DNA of 49,164 bases from Parcubacteria group bacterium Greene0416_36 (GTDB lineage Bacteria > Patescibacteriota > Patescibacteriia > VMEV01): assembly GCA_007375725.1 (NCBI GenBank), contig VMEV01000010.1, positions 1 through 49,164 of the forward strand, in the 5' to 3' direction. The position numbers and the translations under genes were made by a program. Position 1 is the first letter of the stretch, and every line of letters begins with the position of its first letter. Positions 25,607 through 48,795 of this stretch are shown one piece after another. The notes below the pieces were generated by a model. It saw only the letters and a program-made list of their open reading frames with translations. It made no database searches and was not told the origin of the DNA.

Positions 25607-25629
25607 ACACACAAATAATGTGTAAAGAT

Positions 25630-25890
25630 ATGTCAACTATCACACTCTCACCCAATACGAAAGAACGCATCAATGTCATGCTTCCACGACGGATCATCCG
25701 TTCGATCGGCCGTCTATCGAAAAATAGAAAACGAAGCCAATTCATCGCAACCGCGGTCGATTTTTATATTGATTCAATGCAAAACAAAAAACTCAAATCT
25801 CTTCTACAAGAAGGAGCGCAAAAAAGATCCGAAAGAGATCAGATAATCACCGAAGAAATGGGCCTCATCGATACGGTTTATGAAAAATAA
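25630..25890 (+). CDS. Antitoxin of a MazEF/PemIK-type pair (ribbon-helix-helix)
   Basis: An 86-residue protein beginning MSTITLSPNTKERINVMLPRR. The first 45 residues fit a ribbon-helix-helix DNA-binding domain (SQFIATAVDFYID is helix B). The C-terminal tail (KLKSLLQEGAQKRSERDQ) would wrap the toxin. It overlaps the toxin gene by 11 bp. ATG at 25630 leaves about 18 nt of leader from the predicted start site; ATG at 25618 would be nearly leaderless and cannot be excluded. It probably represses the promoter, perhaps through the palindrome upstream. Confidence 0.8.
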   Translation: MSTITLSPNTKERINVMLPRRIIRSIGRLSKNRKRSQFIATAVDFYIDSMQNKKLKSLLQEGAQKRSERDQIITEEMGLIDTVYEK

Positions 25891-26248
25891 GACCCTTTTC
25901 CCAAAGCGAGGCGAAATATATCTCGTCAATTTTGATCCTACAGTAGGAGCGGAGATGAAAAAAACACGGCCGGCTCTCATTTTACAAAATGATATTGCAA
26001 ACAAATATAGCGCCATAACCATCATCGCAGCAATCACCTCTCAATTCGAACTGCCTCTCTACCCTACTGAAGTTTTATTGGACTCTTCCGCATGCCGGCT
26101 AGACAAAGAATCAGTCATAGTACTCAATCAAATCCGATCCATCGACAAAACACGCCTGATCAAAAAAATCGGAGAAATTCCAGCGAAGTCATTACAGCAA
26201 ATAGAAATAGCACTAAAAATAAGCCTGGGTCTTATAAAGATAGAATAA
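25880..26248 (+). CDS. MazF/PemK-family mRNA interferase
   Basis: The 122-residue toxin carries the full family core: RGEIYLVNFDPTVGAEMKKTR (with R30 in the catalytic loop), PALILQNDIAN, ITIIAAITSQ, and SVIVLNQIRSIDKTRLIKKIG. MazF enzymes cut single-stranded mRNA at short motifs and slow growth. It overlaps the antitoxin by 11 bp, so translation is coupled. A terminator follows at once. The length is normal and no active-site residue looks altered. Confidence 0.92.
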   Translation: MKNKTLFPKRGEIYLVNFDPTVGAEMKKTRPALILQNDIANKYSAITIIAAITSQFELPLYPTEVLLDSSACRLDKESVIVLNQIRSIDKTRLIKKIGEIPAKSLQQIEIALKISLGLIKIE

Positions 26249-29477: not shown

Positions 29478-30272
29478 TTAGAGAAGTCGGCGACCAGAAC
29501 GTGGAGAATGGGCCGGGACAGTTATAGGTTTAGGATATGAAGCTAACCCCTCGCGGATCCCTTCATTGCGGATACGGAGGGCAGTCCAAATTTCAACCGA
29601 ACTATGATTGGCGCGCAAAATGAGAAAAACCCATTTTTTCGCCTCCATACGATCCAAATGCTCTTCTTTATAACAAGTAAGAGAGGGCATATGAAGAAGA
29701 CACCTGTTTTTATTGAGGAACAAAAATAATTTTTCATGTCCTATGTTCCAATTTTTGGCTTTCTTAGCAACTCCCTCATGGACAATCAGACAGTAATCTT
29801 GGCATCCCAACTGAACCGCTGGCTTATAGAAATAAGCTCCGGTGCGCAGTTCCGGAACGAAGGGTGTTATTGCCGGAGCCAATAATTCGGCATGGTTAGT
29901 TCTTGTATTCTCCATGCGAGCAGGAGTCCAAATGCGTAGCTTATAGTGATCAAGTTCATTGACCAACACCCAGTCATTTTTTTTCAGAATCGCTAGCTTT
30001 TCTGGAGTAAAAATGATTCGATGCATACCCGAAGTGGCGACCATTTGTGTAAAAAAAGGTCTACGGCGAATCAGCCTGAGCACTAAATTTGGAAATAGCA
30101 ATAAGATTTCCGAAGTATATTTATCTTCCAACTCACTGAATTGCCCGACCAGATAGTTTTTTCTATCCGCGATGCTTTTCATGCCCGAGGCTCGCTCTGC
30201 GATACCACGATGAACAATGCACAGCGGATACTTCAAAGATACTTCATAAATCATTTGGCCTTGTCGAGTCAT
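29478..30272 (-). CDS. Unknown protein with an internal duplication
   Basis: A 264-residue protein of no known family. Its two halves align: CIVHRGIAERASG with LIVHEGVAKKAKN, and EKLAILKKNDWVLVNELDHYKLRIWTPARMEN with EHLDRMEAKKWVFLILRANHSSVEIWTALRIRN. Each half also holds a long helix and a His/Cys-containing strand. The protein is basic, has no signal peptide, and ends in a Pro/Arg-rich tail. A strong AAAGGAGTC site precedes the ATG at 30272, the same type used by the neighbouring accessory genes, so it probably belongs to that block. Confidence 0.6.
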   Translation of the reverse strand: MTRQGQMIYEVSLKYPLCIVHRGIAERASGMKSIADRKNYLVGQFSELEDKYTSEILLLFPNLVLRLIRRRPFFTQMVATSGMHRIIFTPEKLAILKKNDWVLVNELDHYKLRIWTPARMENTRTNHAELLAPAITPFVPELRTGAYFYKPAVQLGCQDYCLIVHEGVAKKAKNWNIGHEKLFLFLNKNRCLLHMPSLTCYKEEHLDRMEAKKWVFLILRANHSSVEIWTALRIRNEGIREGLASYPKPITVPAHSPRSGRRLL

Positions 30273-31093: not shown

Positions 31094-32812
31094 TTATGGC
31101 TGCGGCCTCACTTGAGGGGGTAGGAGGCGACGACTATTGGTGAATTCGATCGCGAGCTGGCTCATTTTTAGAAAGGCCGCCTCGTCGCGACTCGGAATAT
31201 AGTCTTCTACAGCGTTTTTCAGTATTTCAGTTGTTAATTTTTGCGTAGGTGTTTCTTCGGCAAACTGTTTAGCTCGAAGAAGAACCGCTTCCAGCTGAGC
31301 ACCGGTCCAATTATCACTCTGGTCAAGAGCAAAAGAAAAGTCAAGGCTCGCGGCATCGATTTGGTATTTCGTGCACAGAGCCTCAAGAATTTTTTTGCGT
31401 GTTTCTCGATCAGGAACAAGCAATGGAACACGCTTGTCCATGCGACCTTCACGGAGAATGGCAGGAGGTAGACGGTTGGGGTAATTGGTCGCCAAAATGA
31501 AAAATAATTTCCCACGGTTAGCGTCATCACCCATGACATTTTGTAGCATGCCTCGCACACGATTACCCACGCCTGAGTCGCCGGCATATTCTTCACCAGA
31601 ACCGATGGCTTCAGCCGCTTCATCGACAAAAAGAATTGTAGGCGCCATAGCGGCGGCAATATCCATAGCCAGACGCATATTGCGTTCCGAGTCTCCAACA
31701 AATTTGGAGAAGATATTGCCGAGCATCAAAAAATTGACGCCGGACTCTTTTGCCAGGGCTTCAGCGATAATGGTTTTGCCAGTTCCCGGAGGACCCATGA
31801 GGATCCATCCTTTGTCCGTAGTTTTGGACCCGGTGCGAAGTTTGGCAACCTGCACACGGAGGGCTTCTTTGATATATTCAAGTCCTCCAATGGATTCGAA
31901 GCCATGTTTTGGGCGAACAACACGCAAGACTCCCCCGCTTTGTTTTTCGATAAGTTCCATTTTTTTCTGCCAAATAAACCGTTCGTCCAGTTCTTTTCGG
32001 GTAGTTTTGGCAACCAAACAGAAATCATCGAAATCCTTGCAACGAAGACCAGCCATGAGATTAGCAACCATAGGCGCATTCAAACCTGAACCAAATTTCA
32101 CGACATGAGCTTTAGTCGCCCATCTCAAAAACTTCTGATGCTCATCGCGATTAGGCCGTGGAATATGAATCCCCACAACATTGGAGTCATCATGTTTGAC
32201 CGCGGAACTAACACGTTCTGGATTGCGCTCAATGAGAATAACCGGATTGCCCGTTCCTCGGAGTGGAGAGTCAAGGCTAGCCCAGCGCTGGAGAGTCACC
32301 GATGGAACCGAGACATAGTCATTCTCCGAAAGAATGGACTCGGCATATTCCAATATAAGCGCGGCTTTTTTCTCAGTAAGTTTGCCGGTGGAGATAAGTT
32401 TCTCAAGAAGCTGAAATGACCGCTCAGGATCCGTCGGTAAGTCCGTTGCATTACCCAACCCGCCCAAGCTCGCAAGCAAAGAGCTGGAAGAAGTGGAAGA
32501 CGAACTAGGAGCAGCATCGCCCGTAATGAGCGATTTGAATTTCTCACGCATTATGGAAGGACGAGGCCGTCCTGTGGACGGTTCTTGAAGAGACTTGATG
32601 ATTTCATCTCCAAAAGTAAAACCCGCCGCTTTGTCCCAAAAAACTACGATTTCACGACCTGAAAGCTGAGTCGCCACAAATTCTTTGAGAGTCAGAAATG
32701 TTTCATTTAAAGGAAAAAGGTCGGAAATATTTCCGGAAATGAGAAATACATATCCCAACTCCGCTTCGTATGCTTGACGAAGTTTATCCCACCACGTATG
32801 TGCTGTATGCAT
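31094..32812 (-). CDS. Ycf46-like AAA+ ATPase
   Basis: The C-terminal half is a complete AAA+ module: Walker A MGPPGTGKT (339-347), Walker B ILFVDEAAEA (393-402) and a sensor/arginine-finger stretch REGRMDKR (454-461). The N-terminal about 290 residues form a degenerate ATPase-like domain (NIS-DLFP, VVFWDKA, VILIERNP), with a low-complexity Ser linker (103-112). This layout of a divergent N-domain, a linker (KKMELIEKQSG) and an active AAA+ domain starting at GGLEYIKEAL is that of plastid/cyanobacterial Ycf46. The role of Ycf46 is not established. It is the last gene of the operon after the radical SAM gene, with an SD of the GGGG type 8 nt before ATG 32812. Confidence 0.75.
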   Translation of the reverse strand: MHTAHTWWDKLRQAYEAELGYVFLISGNISDLFPLNETFLTLKEFVATQLSGREIVVFWDKAAGFTFGDEIIKSLQEPSTGRPRPSIMREKFKSLITGDAAPSSSSTSSSSLLASLGGLGNATDLPTDPERSFQLLEKLISTGKLTEKKAALILEYAESILSENDYVSVPSVTLQRWASLDSPLRGTGNPVILIERNPERVSSAVKHDDSNVVGIHIPRPNRDEHQKFLRWATKAHVVKFGSGLNAPMVANLMAGLRCKDFDDFCLVAKTTRKELDERFIWQKKMELIEKQSGGVLRVVRPKHGFESIGGLEYIKEALRVQVAKLRTGSKTTDKGWILMGPPGTGKTIIAEALAKESGVNFLMLGNIFSKFVGDSERNMRLAMDIAAAMAPTILFVDEAAEAIGSGEEYAGDSGVGNRVRGMLQNVMGDDANRGKLFFILATNYPNRLPPAILREGRMDKRVPLLVPDRETRKKILEALCTKYQIDAASLDFSFALDQSDNWTGAQLEAVLLRAKQFAEETPTQKLTTEILKNAVEDYIPSRDEAAFLKMSQLAIEFTNSRRLLPPQVRPQP

Positions 32813-32941
32813 GATTGGCCCCTTTTTGTTATTTTAATTTTTCAAAATTCGAAGAACATTCAAAATAAATGTCCTAACGGTATCGACAATCAGTACGATT
32901 CCAAATACGGTTAGGACGGTGAATTTTTTCACCGTTGCCTC

Positions 32942-33601
32942 TTATTTTTTAAGCAACTCGCTGACTTTTTTCCAGACCTGTTCATTTGTCAGAAATTCTG
33001 GAAAACCCGTGTGTGTCACATGGCCAGACAAGTCGAGTGCTGCCGAATATTGCTGGGTTCCCAATAACTCTTCCCTAGAAATGCCGTTGGAAAGAATGAC
33101 GATTTCTTGATTGGCCGATCCCAATAAATTCGACCGATTCGATTTTTGGGACAAAAGATACGGTCCTGCAACCAAGGCATCGGTCCATTTCAAGAGGTCA
33201 GCACTTCCGGAAGGAGCCTTGGAGCTCATCAAAAATTCGTAAGTATAGCCCGTAAAAATAAGTAAACTCAAATTCAATGATTCACGGATTTTACGAGCAA
33301 GAAACGAAAGAGCCCTGGCTTGTTGAAAAGGTTCTCCACCGGAGAAAGTCACGCCCTGGATCGAATTTTTGAGAAGAGATCCATTTATCATCTCCACAAT
33401 CGAATCCAATGTAGAGGATGTGCCTTTTCCGGGGTCCCACGTATGCGAGTTCCAGCATCCCGGACAGTTCCGAGTGGCGCCATTCGGCTGAGGAACCCCA
33501 ATGCAACCTTGCAACCATAGAACAAACCGTTTACCGGGACCATTGACCGTATTGCATGGCAAAAAGCGATGAATACGGAGGGTGCGTGTGTCTTCCCTCA
33601 T
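32942..33601 (-). CDS. Radical SAM 4Fe-4S activase-like protein (NrdG/Ycf-cluster type)
   Basis: A 219-residue protein of the short radical SAM type. The Fe-S cysteines are C33, C46 and C49, a C-X12-C-X2-C pattern; the common C-X3-C-X2-C loop is extended by about nine residues (GVPQPNGATR). The GGEPF motif (SAM amino-group binding), an IFTGYTYE strand typical of glycyl-radical activases, and DALVAGPYLL are present. Such proteins use SAM to make a radical on a partner. No glycyl-radical enzyme is in the window, so its substrate may be a product of this operon. ATG at 33601 lies 2 bp from the upstream stop and has an AAGGA site; a start at 33658 would overlap that gene. Confidence 0.8.
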   Translation of the reverse strand: MREDTRTLRIHRFLPCNTVNGPGKRFVLWLQGCIGVPQPNGATRNCPGCWNSHTWDPGKGTSSTLDSIVEMINGSLLKNSIQGVTFSGGEPFQQARALSFLARKIRESLNLSLLIFTGYTYEFLMSSKAPSGSADLLKWTDALVAGPYLLSQKSNRSNLLGSANQEIVILSNGISREELLGTQQYSAALDLSGHVTHTGFPEFLTNEQVWKKVSELLKK

Positions 33602-33603
33602 CG

Positions 33604-33822
33604 TCAATTCCTTTTTTCGTAGATGATTTGCTGTTCTTTTACCACCGATTGCGGACAAGATGTGTCTTTGTGAACCAGGTTGGTAATTTCGGATTTGATG
33701 CCCAAAGCTTCAAACTGTCTGGCCAGTTCCGCAGCGTGTTTGAGGCAAGCTTTGCCTACAAAACCTGACAGATTGCTGGTGATTTCGCCCTTGCTGTTGA
33801 GAACGATTTTTTCACTAGGCAT
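33604..33822 (-). CDS. DUF2997-like small protein
   Basis: A 72-residue protein: a two-strand start (EKIVLNSKGEITSNLSG), then GFVGKACLKHAAELARQFEALG, which is the conserved Gly-x-x-Gly-Lys-x-Cys helix of DUF2997, and a variable tail. DUF2997 genes commonly lie with DUF1257 and Ycf46-like genes, which is the case here. No function is known. SD AAGGGA precedes the ATG at 33822. Confidence 0.65.
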   Translation of the reverse strand: MPSEKIVLNSKGEITSNLSGFVGKACLKHAAELARQFEALGIKSEITNLVHKDTSCPQSVVKEQQIIYEKRN

Positions 33823-33842
33823 GTTTGGTCCCTTAACTAAAA

Positions 33843-34289
33843 TTAGATTTCGACCAAAAGTTCCAATTGTTTATCTGAATTGACAGTCAGCGAAAATTTT
33901 TGCTGCTGTTTTTCAGCGATAAACATGCGTGCTGCCAGGCAACAAGCACCACCGAGCAGATTCTCTACCTTTTGACGAAGAACCTCGGCTCGACTTTGCT
34001 GGTCCGGAGAATAAAAATCCCCCATAATAGCCAATTGCCCGAGCTTGTCCACGCCCAATCCCATTCCAGGAAATAAGGCAGAATTGCTTGCCGCACCCTT
34101 GGCATCTAGCCCCGAGACAATGGACATACCCTGAAAGGTTGTCACTTGCTTGCCTGCCCAGTCTAGAATATATGGAGTAACCAAAATTCCTTCCAATTCC
34201 AACATTTTGGAAAGAACCTTAATGCCCTCAGTCAAAATAGCAGGATGAATTCCCGCACAGCTGACTTTTTCTGTTTTTATGTGTGACAT
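33843..34289 (-). CDS. DUF1257/Ycf35-like protein
   Basis: The 148-residue product begins MSHIKTEKVSCAGIHPAILTEGIKVL and has the small alpha-beta pattern of Ycf35 (DUF1257): a helix, then a set of strands (AIMGDFYSPDQQSRAEVLRQKVENLL), a cysteine-containing helix (GACCLAARMFIAEKQQQ) and a last strand pair. Ycf35 is found in plastids and cyanobacteria and its role is unknown. It is first in an operon with DUF2997-like, radical SAM and Ycf46-like genes. SD GAGGA lies before the ATG. Its promoter is one side of the palindrome at 34364-34417. Confidence 0.65.
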   Translation of the reverse strand: MSHIKTEKVSCAGIHPAILTEGIKVLSKMLELEGILVTPYILDWAGKQVTTFQGMSIVSGLDAKGAASNSALFPGMGLGVDKLGQLAIMGDFYSPDQQSRAEVLRQKVENLLGGACCLAARMFIAEKQQQKFSLTVNSDKQLELLVEI

Positions 34290-34340: not shown

Positions 34341-34439
34341 AATCTAGCAGACTTGATTTTTTTTGTCAAGAATTTGTCGCAAGGACAGGATCGTATCCTT
34401 GCGACAAATTCTTGACATTTTCAAAAAACATGCTAAATT
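34341..34439. promoter_or_regulatory. Divergent promoters around a 22-bp-arm palindrome
   Basis: Perfect arms (34364-34385 and 34396-34417) enclose a 10-nt spacer. The outer ends are -35 boxes TTGACA on both strands. Plus: TTGACA 34412-34417, 16 nt, TAAATT 34434-34439. Minus: TTGACA 34369-34364, 17 nt, TAGATT 34346-34341. The inner part is TTGTCGCAAGGA with its inverse. One regulator could control both the Ycf-type operon and the gene at 34493. The element resembles the one at 25527-25585. Confidence 0.85.
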
Positions 34440-41564: not shown

Positions 41565-41795
41565 ATGAACCGAACTCAAATCATCCTCGACTCCGAAACA
41601 AAGATAGAATTACAGCGTTATGCCTACCAGACTGACCAATCCATATCGGAACTCATTCGCACGGGAATGAAAGAGTTTCTAGAGAAGAATAAAAAAAATA
41701 ACCGCGGCGTACAAGGCCTCAAGCACCTCGCGAGGATTTCCAGAAAAGGCGGTCCCACAAATCTATCGGCAACGATTGATAAGATTTTATATTAA
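41565..41795 (+). CDS. vapB: VapB-like antitoxin (ribbon-helix-helix)
   Basis: A 76-residue protein: RTQIILDSETKIELQRYAYQTDQSISELIRTGMKEFLEKN is a CopG/RHH DNA-binding start, and the tail (GVQGLKHLARISRKGGPTNLSATIDK) would bind the toxin. It precedes the PIN toxin by 12 bp. It probably autoregulates the operon. Confidence 0.85.
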   Translation: MNRTQIILDSETKIELQRYAYQTDQSISELIRTGMKEFLEKNKKNNRGVQGLKHLARISRKGGPTNLSATIDKILY

Positions 41796-41807
41796 TCTGA
41801 AAAGCCT

Positions 41808-42212
41808 ATGAGAATATTCGTGGACACCAGCTTTTATATTGCTCTCTTGAGGCAAGACGACACCCAGCACAAAAAGGCTACTGCCATTTTGGATAAGCTC
41901 GATCACACCGATGCGATTTTGTACACTTCCCACTTCGTCATAGACGAAACGGTGACCGTGCTTTCCATGAGGGTTTCCAAAAAAGAAGCCAATAAATTTC
42001 TGGACACCGTCCTACAAAAAGATTTCCCGATGATTTTGGATATGGATTCCGCACTCCGAAAAACATCACATGATTTTTTTCGTTCTCTCAAAAATAAAAA
42101 TATCAGCATGATCGACTGCCACTCCGTCATTCTCATGAACCATAAAAATATCGAATACTGCCTCACTTTTGACGATCATTTCAAAAAAATGGGATTCAAA
42201 GTTTGGGGATAA
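41808..42212 (+). CDS. vapC: VapC-like PIN-domain ribonuclease toxin
   Basis: A 134-residue PIN domain with all acidic metal ligands: D6 (FVDTSFYIALL), E47 (VIDETV), D103 (MIDCHSVILM) and D122 (TFDDHFKKMGF). VapC toxins cut tRNA or rRNA. Normal length, intact residues, paired with the RHH antitoxin just upstream. Confidence 0.92.
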   Translation: MRIFVDTSFYIALLRQDDTQHKKATAILDKLDHTDAILYTSHFVIDETVTVLSMRVSKKEANKFLDTVLQKDFPMILDMDSALRKTSHDFFRSLKNKNISMIDCHSVILMNHKNIEYCLTFDDHFKKMGFKVWG

Positions 42213-42870: not shown

Positions 42871-43230
42871 CTAAGGCTTCAACATCTCCCTCACCCCCGT
42901 CCACGCCAATAGCGCGCATTTGAGGCGGCCGGCATTGATGGAGGTGCACAACATTTCTAGTATACCTTCTTTAGATATGTCAAGTACTTCCTCAATTGTC
43001 TTCCCTTTGATGACCTCAGTCAGCATCGATGCCGCTGCCATGGAGATAGCGCAGCCGGAACCGGTGAAGGACACGTCAACGACTCGATTTTCGTCCAGTT
43101 TCATGTATAAAACAAGTCTGTCCCCGCATGTCGGATTATACTCCGCGCGCACCAAAGAATACCCCTTCATTTCTCCATAGTTGGAGGGGGTTTTGTAGTG
43201 GTCGATGATGTTTTGGTGGTAGAGATCCAT
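42871..43230 (-). CDS. sufU: Fe-S cluster assembly scaffold SufU
   Basis: SufU takes sulfur from SufS in Gram-positive-type SUF systems. The three cysteines are C35 (NPTCGDR, with D37), C60 (GSGCAIS) and C105 (RLKCALL), and they fit the Zn/sulfur-acceptor site. At 119 aa it is shorter than Bacillus SufU (about 147 aa) but has all key residues. I chose ATG at 43230 (MDLYHQNIIDHYK). An upstream start at 43272 would add 14 residues encoded by a dispersed repeat. It is the last gene of the suf run, separated from sufS by the inserted four-helix gene. Confidence 0.9.
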   Translation of the reverse strand: MDLYHQNIIDHYKTPSNYGEMKGYSLVRAEYNPTCGDRLVLYMKLDENRVVDVSFTGSGCAISMAAASMLTEVIKGKTIEEVLDISKEGILEMLCTSINAGRLKCALLAWTGVREMLKP

Positions 43231-43266
43231 AACAGAATTAAGAATGAAAAATGAAGAATTAAGAAT
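43231..43266. repeat. TTAAGAATGAAAAATG repeat, one side of the four-helix gene
   Basis: An AAGAATGAAAAATGAAGAAT run borders the 3' end of the four-helix-bundle gene. Its inverse is at 43631-43670 beyond the 5' end. Confidence 0.7.
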
Positions 43267-43624
43267 TATCACGATCTTCTTTTTTTGAAGTCTTTAAAAT
43301 AGTGACTATAATACTCAAAATTTCATTTATTGCATTTAGAAAATAAACAGATAGTTTTTCATTTAAATAGCCGGAATCTTTCAAAAGCCTGATCCAATAG
43401 AGAGTTTCTCTTGCTTCTTTATAAGCAATTGTCATTTTGGCAACAAAATCTCTTTTTGATTGTGCGCCCTGTGCCTCTTCAACATTTGCGCCAATAGAAG
43501 TCCCACTTCTCAAAACCTGCCGCGATAAAACGAATTCTTTATCTTTCGCCACTAATTGCTGAGCTAGCTTCACAATCTGGATTGCAAAATAATAACTTTT
43601 TTCTTGAATAATATTTTCTTTCAT
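43259..43624 (-). CDS. Four-helix-bundle (S23 / IVP-like) protein
   Basis: The 121-residue protein from ATG 43624 matches the pattern of proteins once found in rRNA intervening sequences: MKENIIQEKSYYFAIQIVK, then LSRQVLRSGTSIGANVEEA and KRDFVAKMTIAYKEARETLYWIRLL. These form a small four-helix bundle. Members such as Avd of diversity-generating retroelements bind nucleic acids or partner proteins; most have no known role. It interrupts sufS and sufU and has facing inverted repeats at both ends. A start at 43636 would add MNSS from that repeat. Confidence 0.88.
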   Translation of the reverse strand: MKENIIQEKSYYFAIQIVKLAQQLVAKDKEFVLSRQVLRSGTSIGANVEEAQGAQSKRDFVAKMTIAYKEARETLYWIRLLKDSGYLNEKLSVYFLNAINEILSIIVTILKTSKKEDRDNS

Positions 43625-43630
43625 ACTGCT

Positions 43631-43670
43631 GTTCATTCTTAATTCTTCATTTTTAATTCTTAATTTGAAA
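43631..43670. repeat. TTCTTCATTTTTAATTCTTA repeat, other side of the four-helix gene
   Basis: It is the inverse of 43231-43266. Together the two form inverted ends around the inserted gene. It touches the sufS stop codon. Confidence 0.7.
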
Positions 43671-44888
43671 CACCCTCTTCACTTTCCCAATCGCCTTTAT
43701 CAACTCATCCACATCTTTCTCCGTATTATAAATATAAAACGACACGCGCGCCGTGGCCTCGGTCTTCCATACCCCCATCATGGACTGAGAGCAGTGGTGG
43801 CCAGCGCGGATGGCTATTCCGAAAGTATCGCAGATGGTGGCGATGTCATGAGGGTGCACGCCGCGAATGCCAAAAGAAATAATGCCTCCGCGACTGATCA
43901 TGTCCATGGGGCCGTAAATTTCGACGCCTGAAATTTTCTGGATCTCCCCCAAAGCATACTCGGTCAATTGTTTTTCATGTTCAAAAACCGCGCCCATGCC
44001 AATGGCCGACAAATAATCCACGGCAACGCCAAGAGCCACGGCCTCGGCAATCGGCGGGGTGCCGGCTTCGAAGCGCTCGGGAACATCGGCCCAAGTGGAC
44101 TCAGTCAGATGCACTTCTCGGATCATGCCTCCCCCTCCCTGATACGGTTCCATTTGAAGGAGCAGGTCCTTCTTGCCCCATACGACTCCGATTCCCGTGG
44201 GCCCCAGCATTTTGTGGCCGGAAAAAACGAGAAAATCGCATCCGAGACGCGCAACAGAAACCGGCATATGTGGCACACTCTGCGCGCCATCTAAAATTAA
44301 CAAGGCCTTTTTCTCTCGAATCCAAGGTACTATTTTCTCGACCGGATGAATCACTCCGGAAGAATTCGAGGCATGCGCCACAGACACGATTTTAACCGGA
44401 AGGGTCTTTATTTTATTTTGAAAATCCCCCAGATCCCAGCGTCCCTCTACTGTCATTTTCACCGCCTCCACAGTAAAGCCAAAAATCTGCGAGGCCAATT
44501 GCCATGGAACTAAATTAGAGTGATGCTCGCCTCCCGAAACCAAAACCACATCGCCTTTCTTCAGGAATGTTTTCCCCAGTGAAAAAGCCAAAAGATTCAG
44601 GCCCTCGGTCGCATTTTTAGTGAAAATAATTTCTTTGGCATCTTTAGCTCCAATAAACCGAACTACTTTTTCTTTCGCCTCTTCGTATTTCGCAGTCGCC
44701 TGTTCGGACAAAGAGTAAACCCCGCGATGCACATTGGCATTATCTTTCCTATAAAAATTCGAAATCGACTCAATCACCGCCTTCGGCTTCTGCGTGGTGG
44801 ACGCATTATCCAGATAAACCAAAGAATAACCATTGGATTTGGTTTTTAAGATTGGGAAGTTGGATTTTATGTGTTTTGTGTCAAGCAT
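43653..44888 (-). CDS. sufS: Cysteine desulfurase SufS
   Basis: SufS frees sulfur from cysteine with pyridoxal phosphate and passes it to SufU. The PLP lysine is K226 (FSGHKMLGPTGIG). The substrate-binding EHHSNLVPWQ and the catalytic C366 (RAGHHC) are in place. Length 411 aa is normal for group II desulfurases. The last residues (RVFQIKN) come from the repeat that borders the four-helix gene. It follows sufD after a 213-bp gap filled by another repeat pair. Confidence 0.97.
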   Translation of the reverse strand: MLDTKHIKSNFPILKTKSNGYSLVYLDNASTTQKPKAVIESISNFYRKDNANVHRGVYSLSEQATAKYEEAKEKVVRFIGAKDAKEIIFTKNATEGLNLLAFSLGKTFLKKGDVVLVSGGEHHSNLVPWQLASQIFGFTVEAVKMTVEGRWDLGDFQNKIKTLPVKIVSVAHASNSSGVIHPVEKIVPWIREKKALLILDGAQSVPHMPVSVARLGCDFLVFSGHKMLGPTGIGVVWGKKDLLLQMEPYQGGGGMIREVHLTESTWADVPERFEAGTPPIAEAVALGVAVDYLSAIGMGAVFEHEKQLTEYALGEIQKISGVEIYGPMDMISRGGIISFGIRGVHPHDIATICDTFGIAIRAGHHCSQSMMGVWKTEATARVSFYIYNTEKDVDELIKAIGKVKRVFQIKN

Positions 44889-45130
44889 AGTAATCGTCCG
44901 TCATCCCCGAGAAGCCTCGTCCCGCCATAAGCGGGATACGAGGCTGGATCGGGGATCCAGACCCTTCATATGTAAAAAAAATTATACTTGTCAGACCTTT
45001 TTATCTAGTAGAAAAAACAACCCATTCCTCGCAACAACTATTTTAGTATGACCAAATCCGATGCCTCTAAATAGAGTCGTTGCCTGGATCCCCGATCCGC
45101 CCTACGGGGCTCTCGGGGATGACGGAGAGG
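44889..45130. repeat. Inverted pair of GTCATCCCCGAG repeats between sufD and sufS
   Basis: GTCATCCCCGAG...GGATCGGGGATCCAG (about 44900-44961) and its inverse CTGGATCCCCGATCCGCC...CTCGGGGATGAC (about 45079-45122) bracket about 120 bp of A/T-rich unrelated DNA. The type is a widely spread intergenic repeat in bacterial genomes. It may be a MITE-like element. Confidence 0.7.
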
Positions 45131-46346
45131 GCACATGGATCTGCCGAATTCGTAATTCGTCATTCGTAATTCGTAATTTATTCTGTAGCAGCTCCCTCAC
45201 ATCCTCATTCGGACACGCGTCGATGATCTCGCCCAGGAATCCGCCGATCAGCACCGAACGAGCCTCGTCTCTCTCAAGTCCGCGACTCTGGAGATAGAAT
45301 AACCGGTCGGCGTCAAGCTGGGTAGTCGAAGACCCATGCTTGGCTCCCACGTCATTGGTATGCACGCGAAGAATCGGCAGGGATCGCTTCTTGGCAGAAG
45401 CCGACAATTGTAATCCTGATTCCACCAGATGCGCATTGGAAAGTTTCGCGTCTTTGGAAAGTTCCAAATCCCCCACAAAATCGATGAAAGCTGATCCGTC
45501 GAGAGTGCCTTTGACCACAATATCAGAAGTGGACCTCTCGGCCATGTGATGAGCATTGGCAATAATGGAAATTTCATCCGTACCTCCCGCGCGATACAAA
45601 CCGCGGTAAGAATACTCCGCCTTCTCCCCCGCCAAATACGCCTGATTGAAGATGCGCGCGGCCGGACAATTGAAAGAGGCGCCCCAGACTCGGCAGGAAG
45701 CATTGGCCTCCAAGAAAATCTCGCGCGTGAAAAAAGACTTGGCCTGGCACTCATTATAAAAATTAGAAATCTCGAGTGCCACTCCCTCGCCCACAAAGAC
45801 ACGGTCCAGGCCAAAAGACATCGGCAACTCTTTCGGCTCGGCTCCGGAAGACACGGTGATTTGGGCGGCCACACCCGATTCGACCACCCAGGCCACGACA
45901 AATCCCAGAGGCGCGCTTTGATGGTAATGCATAAAAAAATGGCGCGTCTCGTGCTCGGCGGAAACCAATACCAAACCGCCCGAAGAAAAGACGGCCAAGT
46001 TGGCTAGGACCATGATATCCGAGTCTTGCGAAATATTATGAAAGATATAATTCGAAAAAAATTCCAGATTCTTCTCCAGTTCCGTGTACTCCAAAAAATT
46101 CATGTCGATGTTTCCAGCCGCGGAATCAATGCTCACAACCTCGCCAGCGCTGATCTCCAGAGGCTCGCTCAATTTTTCTTCTTTTCCCAACAACATTTCC
46201 AAAGCGGCCAACTGTTCCTTGGTGAATTTTTTCTCTTTCAAAAGTGAGAACGCAAAATCACGGCCTTCTTTGATAAAGCGAGGCTCGCGGCGTGTTTGAT
46301 TGAGATTATCTTTAATAATTTTGATTTGAGAAATGATGTGTTGCAT
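45102..46346 (-). CDS. sufD: Fe-S cluster assembly protein SufD
   Basis: SufD pairs with SufB and SufC to build Fe-S clusters. The beta-helix core is visible (AEHETRHFFMHYHQSAPLG, a run of short strands, then HTNDVGAKHGSSTTQLDADRLFYLQSRGLERDEA). The last part is the SufB/D C-terminal helix signature. His in VGAKHGSS fits the conserved SufD position. Length 414 aa is normal. The final about 20 residues (from ITNDELRIRQ) come from a dispersed repeat. It follows sufB in the operon. Confidence 0.93.
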   Translation of the reverse strand: MQHIISQIKIIKDNLNQTRREPRFIKEGRDFAFSLLKEKKFTKEQLAALEMLLGKEEKLSEPLEISAGEVVSIDSAAGNIDMNFLEYTELEKNLEFFSNYIFHNISQDSDIMVLANLAVFSSGGLVLVSAEHETRHFFMHYHQSAPLGFVVAWVVESGVAAQITVSSGAEPKELPMSFGLDRVFVGEGVALEISNFYNECQAKSFFTREIFLEANASCRVWGASFNCPAARIFNQAYLAGEKAEYSYRGLYRAGGTDEISIIANAHHMAERSTSDIVVKGTLDGSAFIDFVGDLELSKDAKLSNAHLVESGLQLSASAKKRSLPILRVHTNDVGAKHGSSTTQLDADRLFYLQSRGLERDEARSVLIGGFLGEIIDACPNEDVRELLQNKLRITNDELRIRQIHVPSPSSPRAP

Positions 46347-46349
46347 AAA

Positions 46350-46550
46350 AATGTATCAGTGTCATTGCGAGCGATTTCGAACCGATAAAGTCATTTAAAA
46401 AAATGACGGCTGAAGAGAAGAGTGTGGCAATCTCGTGATCACACTATCCCCTTCGACACGAGATTGCTTCATCCCCGCTAAGACGCGTGTCTTCGCAATG
46501 ACAGTAACTCCGCAGGCTGTTCATTCTTAATTCTTAATTTTTAATTTTGC
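46350..46550. repeat. Repeat cluster between sufB and sufD
   Basis: GTCATTGCGAGCGATTTCG, CAATCTCGTG and CGAGATTGCTTCATCC segments form an extended inverted structure (46358-46502), then TTCATTCTTAATTCTTAATT follows (46519-46538). The GTCATTGCGA core recurs at 48833. Confidence 0.65.
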
Positions 46551-46559
46551 ATTTGTTGC

Positions 46560-47921
46560 CTACCCCACCCACCCGCCCTCATCTATCTCCATCTGAATGA
46601 GGCGGTTCATCTCAACCGCGTATTCGAGGGGGATTTCTTTCATGATGGGTTCGATGAAGCCATTGATGATAAGCGAGACGGCTTGGTTTTCGGAAAGACC
46701 GCGGCTTTTGAGGTAAAAAATCTGGTCCGGGCTGATTTTGCCGGTGGCGGCTTCGTGGACGCACTCAGACGTGTCATTGTCGACTTTGATATAAGGAAAA
46801 GTATCGGATCCGGAAATGGGATCGAGGAGGAGAGCGTCACAGCGAACGGAACATTTCGCATTCGCGGCACCAGGAAGAATATTGACGAGTCCTCGATAGT
46901 GGCTTTTGCCGCCGTCTTTGGCCAGGCCTTTTGCCATGATGTGAGACGAAGTATTCCTGCCGATATGAATCACCTTGGCGCCCACGTCTTGGATCTGATT
47001 TTCCCCGGCAAACGCGACCGAGAGATGCTCGGCTTTCGATCCGTCGCCTTTGAGGACGGAACAGGGATACACCATGGAAATGCAGGAACCCAAGTTGCCC
47101 GTCACCCACTCGATCACACCTTTTTCCTCGACCATGGCGCGCTTGGTATTGAGATTGTGCACGTCAATGCTCCAGTTCTCAATGCTCGAGTACCGGCACC
47201 GCGCGTTTTTGCCGACAAATACCTCCACTCCTCCGGCATGAAGCGCGGTCGAGTCATACCGCGGAGCACTGCACCCTTCGATATAATGCGCCACCGCGTC
47301 ATCTTCCACCACGATCAGGGTATGTTCGAACTGGCCAAGTCCCGGAGTATTCATACGAAAATACGACTGGACAGGCATATCGAGCTTGACTCCTTTTGGA
47401 ATATAGAGAAAAGTCCCGCCGCTCCAGAAAGCATAGTGAAGCGCCATGTATTTGTGCTCGGCAAGAGACAAACATTTTGAAAAATATTTTCGGACAATGT
47501 CTTCGTGGTCAACCAGAGCCACGCTCAAATCTTCGTATAAAATCCCCATTTCTTTCCATTTGGATTTGAGATTGTGATACACGACTTCAGACTCATATTG
47601 CGCGCCCACGCCAGCCAGAGCCTTGCGCTCGGCTTCGGGAATGCCCAGTTTATCGAAAGTTTTCTTGATTTCTTCCGGAACATCTTCCCATTTTTTGGCA
47701 TTGCGGATCTCTCCGGGAGACGCGTAATAGACAATTTTCTCCAAATCCAAACCTGAGAGAGATGGTCCGAATCCCGGCATTTGTTTGTCTGTAAAAATTT
47801 TATAGGCCTTGAGGCGTAATTCCAGCATCCAAACAGGCTCTTTCTTATCCGCGGATAATCGGCGAACCAGATCTTCGGACACGCCCGGTTTGAGGCCGGT
47901 TAGGTGGTCGGTGTGAATCAT
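46560..47921 (-). CDS. sufB: Fe-S cluster assembly protein SufB
   Basis: SufB is the main scaffold of the SufBCD complex. The family sequence is complete: GVQYE-like AGVGAQYESEVVYHN, FWSGGTFLYIPKGVKLDMPVQSYFR, EGCSAPRYDSTALHAGGVEV (in parts), NLGSCISMVYPCSVL and LYLKSRGL-like IFYLKSRGLSENQA. Length 453 aa fits. It starts 2 bp after the sufC stop, so translation is coupled. Confidence 0.97.
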   Translation of the reverse strand: MIHTDHLTGLKPGVSEDLVRRLSADKKEPVWMLELRLKAYKIFTDKQMPGFGPSLSGLDLEKIVYYASPGEIRNAKKWEDVPEEIKKTFDKLGIPEAERKALAGVGAQYESEVVYHNLKSKWKEMGILYEDLSVALVDHEDIVRKYFSKCLSLAEHKYMALHYAFWSGGTFLYIPKGVKLDMPVQSYFRMNTPGLGQFEHTLIVVEDDAVAHYIEGCSAPRYDSTALHAGGVEVFVGKNARCRYSSIENWSIDVHNLNTKRAMVEEKGVIEWVTGNLGSCISMVYPCSVLKGDGSKAEHLSVAFAGENQIQDVGAKVIHIGRNTSSHIMAKGLAKDGGKSHYRGLVNILPGAANAKCSVRCDALLLDPISGSDTFPYIKVDNDTSECVHEAATGKISPDQIFYLKSRGLSENQAVSLIINGFIEPIMKEIPLEYAVEMNRLIQMEIDEGGWVG

Positions 47922-47923
47922 AT

Positions 47924-48739
47924 TTATTTCGCCATTTTCAATTTCTTTTTTGCTGACTGTTCTCCCTCCATTGTCAAGGGGAGGGCTGGGGTGGGGTTGA
48001 ACCCCTCCTCCTCGAGCTGATCCACCAATTCCATGCCTCCGGACTTCACGATCTTTCCCTCTTTGAGAATATGAACGGCATCGGCTTTGATGTATTCGAG
48101 AATGCGTTTGTAATGGGTGATGAGCAGAATACTCGATCCCTTGGAAATAAGCACATTGATTCCTGAAGCGACGGTTCGGAGAGCATCGACATCGAGACCG
48201 GAGTCGATTTCATCGATAATAGCCAATTTCGGTTCCAGAAGTAACATTTGCAAAACCTCCGCCTTCTTCTTCTCCCCCCCGGAAAATCCCTGATTCAAAT
48301 AACGGTCAAGAAAGGACCGGTCCATATTCAGCTCCTTCATTTTCTCTAGGAGAATTTTTCGAAAATCCATGCTTTTTAGATCCACGGATTCAGAATTTGC
48401 CACTTTCATTTTGGAATTATAGGCCAAACGCAAAAATTCAGGGAAGGACACGCCGTCAATTTCCACGGGATTCTGAAAAGATAAAAAGATACCTTTTTGT
48501 GCGATTTCAGAAGGATCCATTTCAGAAATCTTCTCTTTTCCAAATAAAATCTCACCGCCGGTCATCTGGTACTGCGGATTCTTGGCAATCACATGTGCCA
48601 GCGAACTTTTCCCCGAGCCATTGGGACCCATCACGACATGCACCTCCCCCGCTGGAATCTCCAGATCCACCCCGCGAAGCACTTCCTTGTCCGTCTCAAT
48701 GATTTTGGCCTTTAAATTGTGTATCGATAAATTGGGCAT
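47924..48739 (-). CDS. sufC: Fe-S assembly ABC ATPase SufC
   Basis: SufC powers the SufBCD complex. Walker A is GPNGSGKSS, the ABC signature is FSGGEKKKAEVLQ, Walker B is LAIIDEIDSGLD, and the switch His is in LLITHYKRIL. I chose ATG at 48739 (MPNLSIHNLKAK); the longer form from 48787 would start beyond the promoter -10. The C-terminal 22 residues (GFNPTPALPLTMEG...) are encoded by a dispersed repeat. It is the first suf gene, behind an IscR-like operator. Confidence 0.96.
   Translation of the reverse strand: MPNLSIHNLKAKIIETDKEVLRGVDLEIPAGEVHVVMGPNGSGKSSLAHVIAKNPQYQMTGGEILFGKEKISEMDPSEIAQKGIFLSFQNPVEIDGVSFPEFLRLAYNSKMKVANSESVDLKSMDFRKILLEKMKELNMDRSFLDRYLNQGFSGGEKKKAEVLQMLLLEPKLAIIDEIDSGLDVDALRTVASGINVLISKGSSILLITHYKRILEYIKADAVHILKEGKIVKSGGMELVDQLEEEGFNPTPALPLTMEGEQSAKKKLKMAK
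47950..48006. repeat. TTGTCAAGGGGAGGGCTGGGG repeat inside the sufC 3' end
   Basis: CCTCCATTGTCAAGGGGAGG and GGGGTTGAACCCCTCCTCC are of the same family as 28.96 and 39.35 kb. It is read in frame as the SufC tail. Confidence 0.7.
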
Positions 48740-48748
48740 AAATAAAAT

Positions 48749-48795
48749 ACTATGACTAATTGAGTCATAGTAATGCAAAACGAACAAAAAATCAA
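48749..48795 (-). promoter_or_regulatory. suf promoter with IscR/Rrf2-type operator
   Basis: Minus-strand -35 TTGATT (48795-48790), 17 nt, -10 TACTAT (48772-48767). A perfect palindrome ACTATGACT-N5-AGTCATAGT (48749-48771) covers the -10 and start site. GACT-N5-AGTC with A/T flanks agrees with type 1 sites of the IscR (Rrf2) family. No Rrf2 gene is in this window. Confidence 0.75.

Follow-up and report, generated by a model that had tools for sequence, protein, structure and literature searches.

A four-gene module of DUF1257-like, DUF2997-like, NrdG-like radical SAM and AAA+ proteins in a small-genome bacterium of the Parcubacteria group

Locus and question

A locus of Parcubacteria group bacterium Greene0416_36 raises the question of what two small proteins, a radical enzyme and an ATPase, encoded by four adjacent genes, do together in a bacterium with few genes. 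The window, meaning here the whole 49,164-nucleotide stretch of DNA that was analysed, is one contig (VMEV01000010.1) of a 1.03-Mb genome that is 100 % complete in 25 contigs (assembly GCA_007375725.1), and the listed genomes of the same class measure 0.7-1.2 Mb, in agreement with an organism of the candidate phyla radiation (CPR) type. The genes encode a DUF1257/Ycf35-like protein, a DUF2997-like protein, a radical S-adenosylmethionine (SAM) enzyme and an AAA+ ATPase with a Ycf46-type domain. Many algal plastid genomes, and cyanobacteria, have ycf35 and ycf46, and the module ties the two families to DUF2997 and a dedicated radical SAM enzyme. Judged from sequence comparison, the four genes may form one functional module in which the radical SAM enzyme would modify a small partner, preferably DUF2997, and an AAA+ ring with DUF1257 as adaptor would remodel it; this is the answer we favour, tentatively. 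Each family was known before. The open-licence literature searched contained no description of the four families as a module, of an activase in it that differs from NrdG, of its absence from NrdD loci or of its carriage by minimal-genome bacteria, and these appear to be new.

Recurrence of the module

The same four genes occur in the same order in two further genomes. In a metagenome-assembled genome, BP7.bin39 (L004), the homologues are 47, 38, 40 and 67 % identical (DUF1257-like, DUF2997, radical SAM and AAA, respectively), and in G333, a genome of the same class as the window genome, the genes have overlapping starts. On the Paenibacillus urinalis plasmid L014 the radical SAM, AAA, DUF1257 and DUF2997 genes all lie within 5 kb, and each of the eight large phage or phage-plasmid contigs retrieved with no query but the AAA protein has the other three families as well; two of these eight nearly duplicate the P. 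urinalis and Bacillus licheniformis records, and IMG/VR contigs may be plasmids or islands rather than viruses. The Bacillales modules (L014, L082-L089) are like that of the window in holding the four families within about 5 kb, and unlike it in gene order, in having an AAA protein of the Ycf46 clade and a radical SAM motif CX7CX2C, and in the extra small genes lying between. Co-occurrence in other genomes, which a first-pass annotation of the window had anticipated, is thus borne out by L004, G333, phages, phage-plasmids and plasmid L014, and its reach far beyond the window genome supports the four families as one functional unit.

Partial sets were also found. DUF2997 lies close beside DUF1257 in nearly all of 46 cyanophage contigs fetched with DUF1257; plasmids of Trichormus, Nostoc, Anabaena, Pseudanabaena and Planktothrix carry AAA, DUF1257 and DUF2997 genes but, over the stretch that was read, lack one for a radical SAM enzyme, and Rhizobium phage L338C has the same three families with no radical SAM gene nearby.

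The 148-residue protein family is present in 2 of 381 genomes of the window bacterium's class, a sporadic distribution by which the module looks horizontally acquired. Within this class it has the look of mobile cargo rather than of a core module that was retained; the 1.03-Mb genome agrees with the CPR-like host with few genes proposed in the first-pass annotation. Beside the module in G333, contig C60 (L092 2691-5444) holds a reverse-transcriptase-like open reading frame (ORF), a small Avd-like ORF and an ORF of 424 residues, a set that on visual inspection resembles a diversity-generating retroelement.

Radical SAM enzyme and its separation from NrdG

The window enzyme has a Fer4_12 match, the three-cysteine motif and GGEP, and its cluster motif (CX12CX2C) contains an insert relative to the usual CX3CX2C. 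Its best curated match is NrdG and its best PHROG is the anaerobic ribonucleotide reductase small subunit, which would favour a plain NrdG activating anaerobic ribonucleotide reductase, with the other three genes as bystanders. That explanation is highly improbable and already contradicted. On the NrdG model TIGR02491 the window enzyme scores 97.9 bits, below the cut-off of 126.1, and three other module enzymes score 84-116 bits, so that all four members tested fall under it. The complete window genome gave no NrdD and no Gly_radical match, and the module enzyme is its sole Fer4_12 protein. G333 has a true NrdD and NrdG2 pair on another contig in addition to the module.

Among the viral contigs scanned with the radical SAM enzyme, 65 loci were found, of which 47 have NrdD, 12 have DUF1257, none has both and six have neither (Fisher p 9e-13 for mutual exclusion, kinship among loci being ignored); most of the 12 also carry DUF2997, AAA or both. 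In the radical SAM tree 21 of 22 NrdGs fall in one clade (support 99/98) free of module enzymes, the exception being L116, a long-branch NrdG with NrdD alongside that is placed among the module enzymes. An NrdG role for the gene was rejected on the sub-cut-off scores, the lack of a genomic NrdD and the absence of mixed neighbourhoods among the 65 viral loci, and the bystander idea on the recurrence of the module genes together.

From these comparisons the module enzyme is placed as a sister of NrdG and not as NrdG itself, a placement that is new in this analysis. It resembles the NrdG/NrdD pair in having a radical SAM fold, the motifs GPG and CPGC[WF]N and a dedicated neighbour and in being small, and differs from it in the missing NrdD, the lower NrdG score, the separate tree branches and the enlarged cysteine loop of the window enzyme. 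Because NrdD and the module neighbours exclude each other, the module sits where the usual target of the activase sits, and since those neighbours replace the target, the target of the module enzyme is probably among them. Part of the phage-database labels of anaerobic ribonucleotide reductase activase would then be mis-annotations of a different enzyme with a different partner.

DUF2997-like protein

The window protein scores 13.5 bits against Pfam PF11211, below the cut-off of 24.1, and its L004 homologue 23.2 bits. Profile-profile comparison with plasmid DUF2997 proteins links it to the family (E 2.5e-6), a GxxC motif is present, and there is good reason to regard this 72-residue protein as a DUF2997 member. 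All 53 distinct DUF2997 ORFs have the cysteine, and a glycine three residues ahead of it occurs in 33, including the radical-SAM-bearing loci listed. On the Nostoc plasmid pC052_F (L020 4501-5067), one 188-residue protein is an apparent DUF1257-DUF2997 fusion.

DUF1257/Ycf35-like protein

Neither the window nor the L004 148-residue protein matches Pfam PF06868 (cut-off 22.2 bits), DUF1257 was assigned by Pfam to none of 19 relatives, and searches of phages and plasmids for homologues of the 148-residue protein gave no credible match. No close relative of this protein or of the window AAA protein was found among the viral contigs. A profile of the window and L004 proteins does find the G333 protein (E 1e-5), which scores 21.5 bits against a hidden Markov model of 22 DUF1257 proteins (none of 1968 shuffles exceeded 9.4) and was joined across contigs, its N-terminal part ending C60 and its C-terminal part opening C50 with a 6-base overlap, a join that we infer. 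The profile of all three members scores above 200 of 200 column shuffles in profile-profile comparison with DUF1257. A Ycf35 probe sequence served only to fetch the database sequences on which the conclusions rest.

Traits expected of a DUF1257 are an MSH start, and the window protein begins MSHI, and a fold of strand, helix, strands, long helix and two strands; the order of elements in the modelled window protein (predicted local distance difference test, pLDDT, 87) agrees with that in a canonical DUF1257 model (pLDDT 88), yet Foldseek does not connect the two models (the library contains one clear DUF1257). Against the viral and PDB libraries Foldseek returned nothing significant for the 148-residue model. 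The protein is thus read as a putative far-diverged DUF1257 unrecognised by Pfam, with an indirect membership that runs through G333. Among the family labels given at first pass, radical SAM and AAA held on profile search and DUF2997 held by profile-profile comparison only, while DUF1257 failed in Pfam and was reached through G333.

In six DUF1257 proteins, all in radical-SAM-bearing loci (L026, L028, L102, L103, L106 and L110), an MSA start replaces MSH; MSH-start forms are found both with and without a radical SAM gene. On the Treponema succinifaciens plasmid pTRESU01 (L013 4501-4908) a DUF1257 gene lies within a contractile phage-tail-like gene cluster.

AAA+ ATPase

The N-terminal domain of the window ATPase matches Ycf46-type proteins by profile (E 2.4e-9), giving the two-domain Ycf46-type layout, but the protein falls outside the Ycf46-type clade (19 rows, support 99/100; some branches of the tree are very long); the label Ycf46-like therefore suits the architecture and not the phylogenetic position. 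Its Walker A, Walker B and arginine-finger regions are intact, and the G333 protein has an altered Walker A (GPPRTSKT). The nearest full-length relatives beyond the three small genomes are GNIxD-type AAA proteins of Aneurinibacillus and Paenibacillus plasmids (L006, L007; 25-27 % identity, BLAST E 1e-54 to 1e-57), where, unlike in the window, none of the DUF1257, DUF2997 and radical SAM genes was detected next to the AAA gene. In L028 (1684-3249) the AAA domain is apparently circularly permuted, with Walker B (VIFIDEIEKA) before Walker A (GIPGTSKS), and Pfam AAA matches it as three out-of-order pieces.

Proposed mechanism

In the mechanism we favour, the radical SAM activase would use SAM and a [4Fe-4S] cluster to modify one small partner. 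The preferred target would be the conserved cysteine of DUF2997, together with the glycine three residues earlier where present, by analogy with NrdG acting on NrdD; DUF2997 is the best candidate among the neighbours, being small and having the cysteine in all of the 53 ORFs and the glycine in most. The AAA ring, with DUF1257 as adaptor, would then remodel the complex, so as to present the site to the enzyme or to apply the modified partner to a client. Observed are the four genes, the order in which they lie and their recurrence, an enzyme that stands apart from NrdG and NrdD, ATPase and cluster motifs that are intact, and a cysteine that does not vary; the physical complex, the identity of the substrate, the chemistry and the purpose of the module are proposed on these grounds. 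The earlier suggestion that one of the small proteins is the target of the radical enzyme gains support, by the inferential step that an NrdG-like enzyme whose neighbours replace NrdD should find its target among them; as to the glycine or cysteine then named as the site, cysteine is fully conserved and glycine less so.

Several points weigh against this proposal. The glycine is missing from 20 of the 53 DUF2997 proteins. The cyanobacterial plasmids and the cyanophages keep DUF1257, DUF2997 and the same cysteine (the plasmids AAA as well) with the radical SAM gene not in reach, so a role as radical SAM substrate cannot be the sole reason for keeping the cysteine. That the window protein belongs to DUF1257 depends on a third sequence that bridges a contig break, and the Foldseek link is absent. 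What the proposal offers is a small reconstitutable system with a concrete prediction, namely that a defined small protein would carry a radical modification.

Comparison with cyanobacteria

Cyanobacterial chromosomes carry a DUF2997-ycf35-fed7 cluster in which fed7 encodes a 4Fe-4S ferredoxin (PMC4284462), ycf35, ssl1263 and fed7 share SigD control (PMC8875361), and Fed7 is required under iron limitation and oxidative and metal stress. The ycf46 gene (slr0374) belongs to an operon that responds to iron, to sulfur and to oxidative stress (PMC7496141). Phenotypes in the literature consulted concern cyanobacterial Ycf46 and Fed7 only. The first-pass statement that ycf35 and ycf46 are conserved in plastids and cyanobacteria stands, but that their role is not known needs amending, since Synechocystis that has lost Ycf46 is affected in its use of CO2 (Jiang 2015, cited in PMC7496141). 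The cyanobacterial set is like the module in that DUF2997 adjoins DUF1257, an iron-sulfur (Fe-S) protein lies beside them and Ycf46 has the two-domain AAA layout; it is unlike the module in that the ferredoxin replaces the radical SAM enzyme, ycf46 is in another operon and the window AAA protein is outside the Ycf46 clade.

The fed7 cluster, the SigD co-control, the need for Fed7 under stress and the stress-responsive ycf46 operon lend support to a different explanation, in which AAA, DUF1257 and DUF2997 would be a chaperone or maturase maintaining an Fe-S protein, the radical SAM enzyme being the client here and Fed7 in cyanobacteria. An Fe-S partner that is common across lineages and not always a radical SAM enzyme is in keeping with it. 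We consider it somewhat unlikely: the module radical SAM enzymes form their own lineages that replace NrdD neighbourhoods, as expected of an activase with its target rather than of a generic client, and most DUF2997 members examined have a single cysteine, too few to hold a cluster alone. It shares with the activase mechanism favoured above an Fe-S partner as core feature. A bolder form of that mechanism is a radical-activated machine spread by phages, in which the NrdG-like enzyme would set a stable radical or cross-link on the 70-residue DUF2997 for use by a Ycf46-type ring with DUF1257, plastid ycf35 and ycf46 being remnants in which ferredoxin replaced the radical enzyme; this we hold to be unlikely.

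Defence and small-molecule alternatives

Carriage mostly by phages, phage-plasmids and plasmids, together with the sporadic occurrence in the window's class, could also indicate an anti-phage or counter-defence system with an effector that the radical SAM enzyme and the AAA ring would produce or load, and in L035 an MkoA-like helicase (PADLOC 5.8e-76) has the AAA gene on one side and the DUF2997, DUF1257 and radical SAM genes on the other. This is nevertheless improbable, as the four window proteins had no PADLOC family match beyond generic AAA similarity (mainly IetA), many algal plastids conserve ycf35 and ycf46 (PMC5940233), and large phages hold many metabolic genes. A known defence system was rejected for want of a specific PADLOC match. 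In L035 (2121-9111) proteins of 556 and 722 residues are encoded along with the MkoA-like (Mokosh) helicase between these genes.

Enlarged cluster loops have been reported for some QueE enzymes. The loops of the module enzymes (CX12CX2C, CX7CX2C) and a weak QueE-like PHROG similarity would be compatible with a radical SAM enzyme making a QueE-like small-molecule product used by the module, with no protein modification; NrdG, whose family acts on proteins, is a far better match and no small-molecule pathway genes were seen beside the module, and we regard this explanation as very doubtful.

Gene layout and neighbouring features

The features are listed in Table 1. All four minus-strand ORFs described at first pass (31094-34289) are present, each preceded by a purine-rich stretch before ATG that is a plausible ribosome-binding site, as had been noted. 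The radical SAM enzyme is counted from an ATG with AGGA just 5'; the mechanical ORF opens at TTG 33658. Of the short gaps reported earlier, those of 20 and 2 nucleotides (nt) are so, but the third is 129 nt long and contains strong hairpins, possibly an attenuator or processing site setting the ATPase level. No RNA family was found at the module locus with Rfam.

Table 1 Features of the window module and of its counterpart on G333 contig C50
Feature	Position	Strand	Basis
Divergent DUF1257/Ycf35-like protein, 148 residues, MSHI start	33843..34289	-	47 % identity to L004 homologue; profile link to G333
DUF2997-like protein, 72 residues, invariant Cys (GFVGKAC)	33604..33822	-	Pfam 13.5 bits; profile-profile E 2.5e-6
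NrdG-like radical SAM enzyme, 219 residues, CX12CX2C, GGEP	32942..33601	-	Fer4_12 1.6e-29; NrdG model 97.9 bits
Spacer of 129 nt with strong RNA hairpins, between radical SAM and AAA genes	32813..32941	-	-37.7 kcal/mol, z -4.87, 0/200 shuffles
AAA+ ATPase, 572 residues, Ycf46-type N-terminal domain, Walker A GPPGTGKT, Walker B FVDEA	31094..32812	-	AAA 6.6e-27
Candidate promoter TTGACA-17-TAGATT, TG ahead of second hexamer, 5' of first gene	34341..34369	-	Consensus match only
DUF2997, G333 contig C50	136-357		
Radical SAM, G333 contig C50	341-931		
AAA, G333 contig C50	928-2700		

On the 3' side of the AAA gene the window (29478-30272) encodes an uncharacterised protein with two related halves, of which a weak relative lies 3' of the AAA gene in L004 (10425-10772; E about 3e-6, two-sequence test). 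No counterpart of this candidate fifth member was noticed in the short G333 contig, no dedicated search having been made. Judged by eye, minus-strand genes 9 kb from the module (42871-48787) resemble a SUF operon for iron-sulfur assembly (SufU, SufS, SufD, SufB, SufC), and two small gene pairs (25618-26248 and 41565-42212) resemble MazEF-type and PIN-domain toxin-antitoxin modules.

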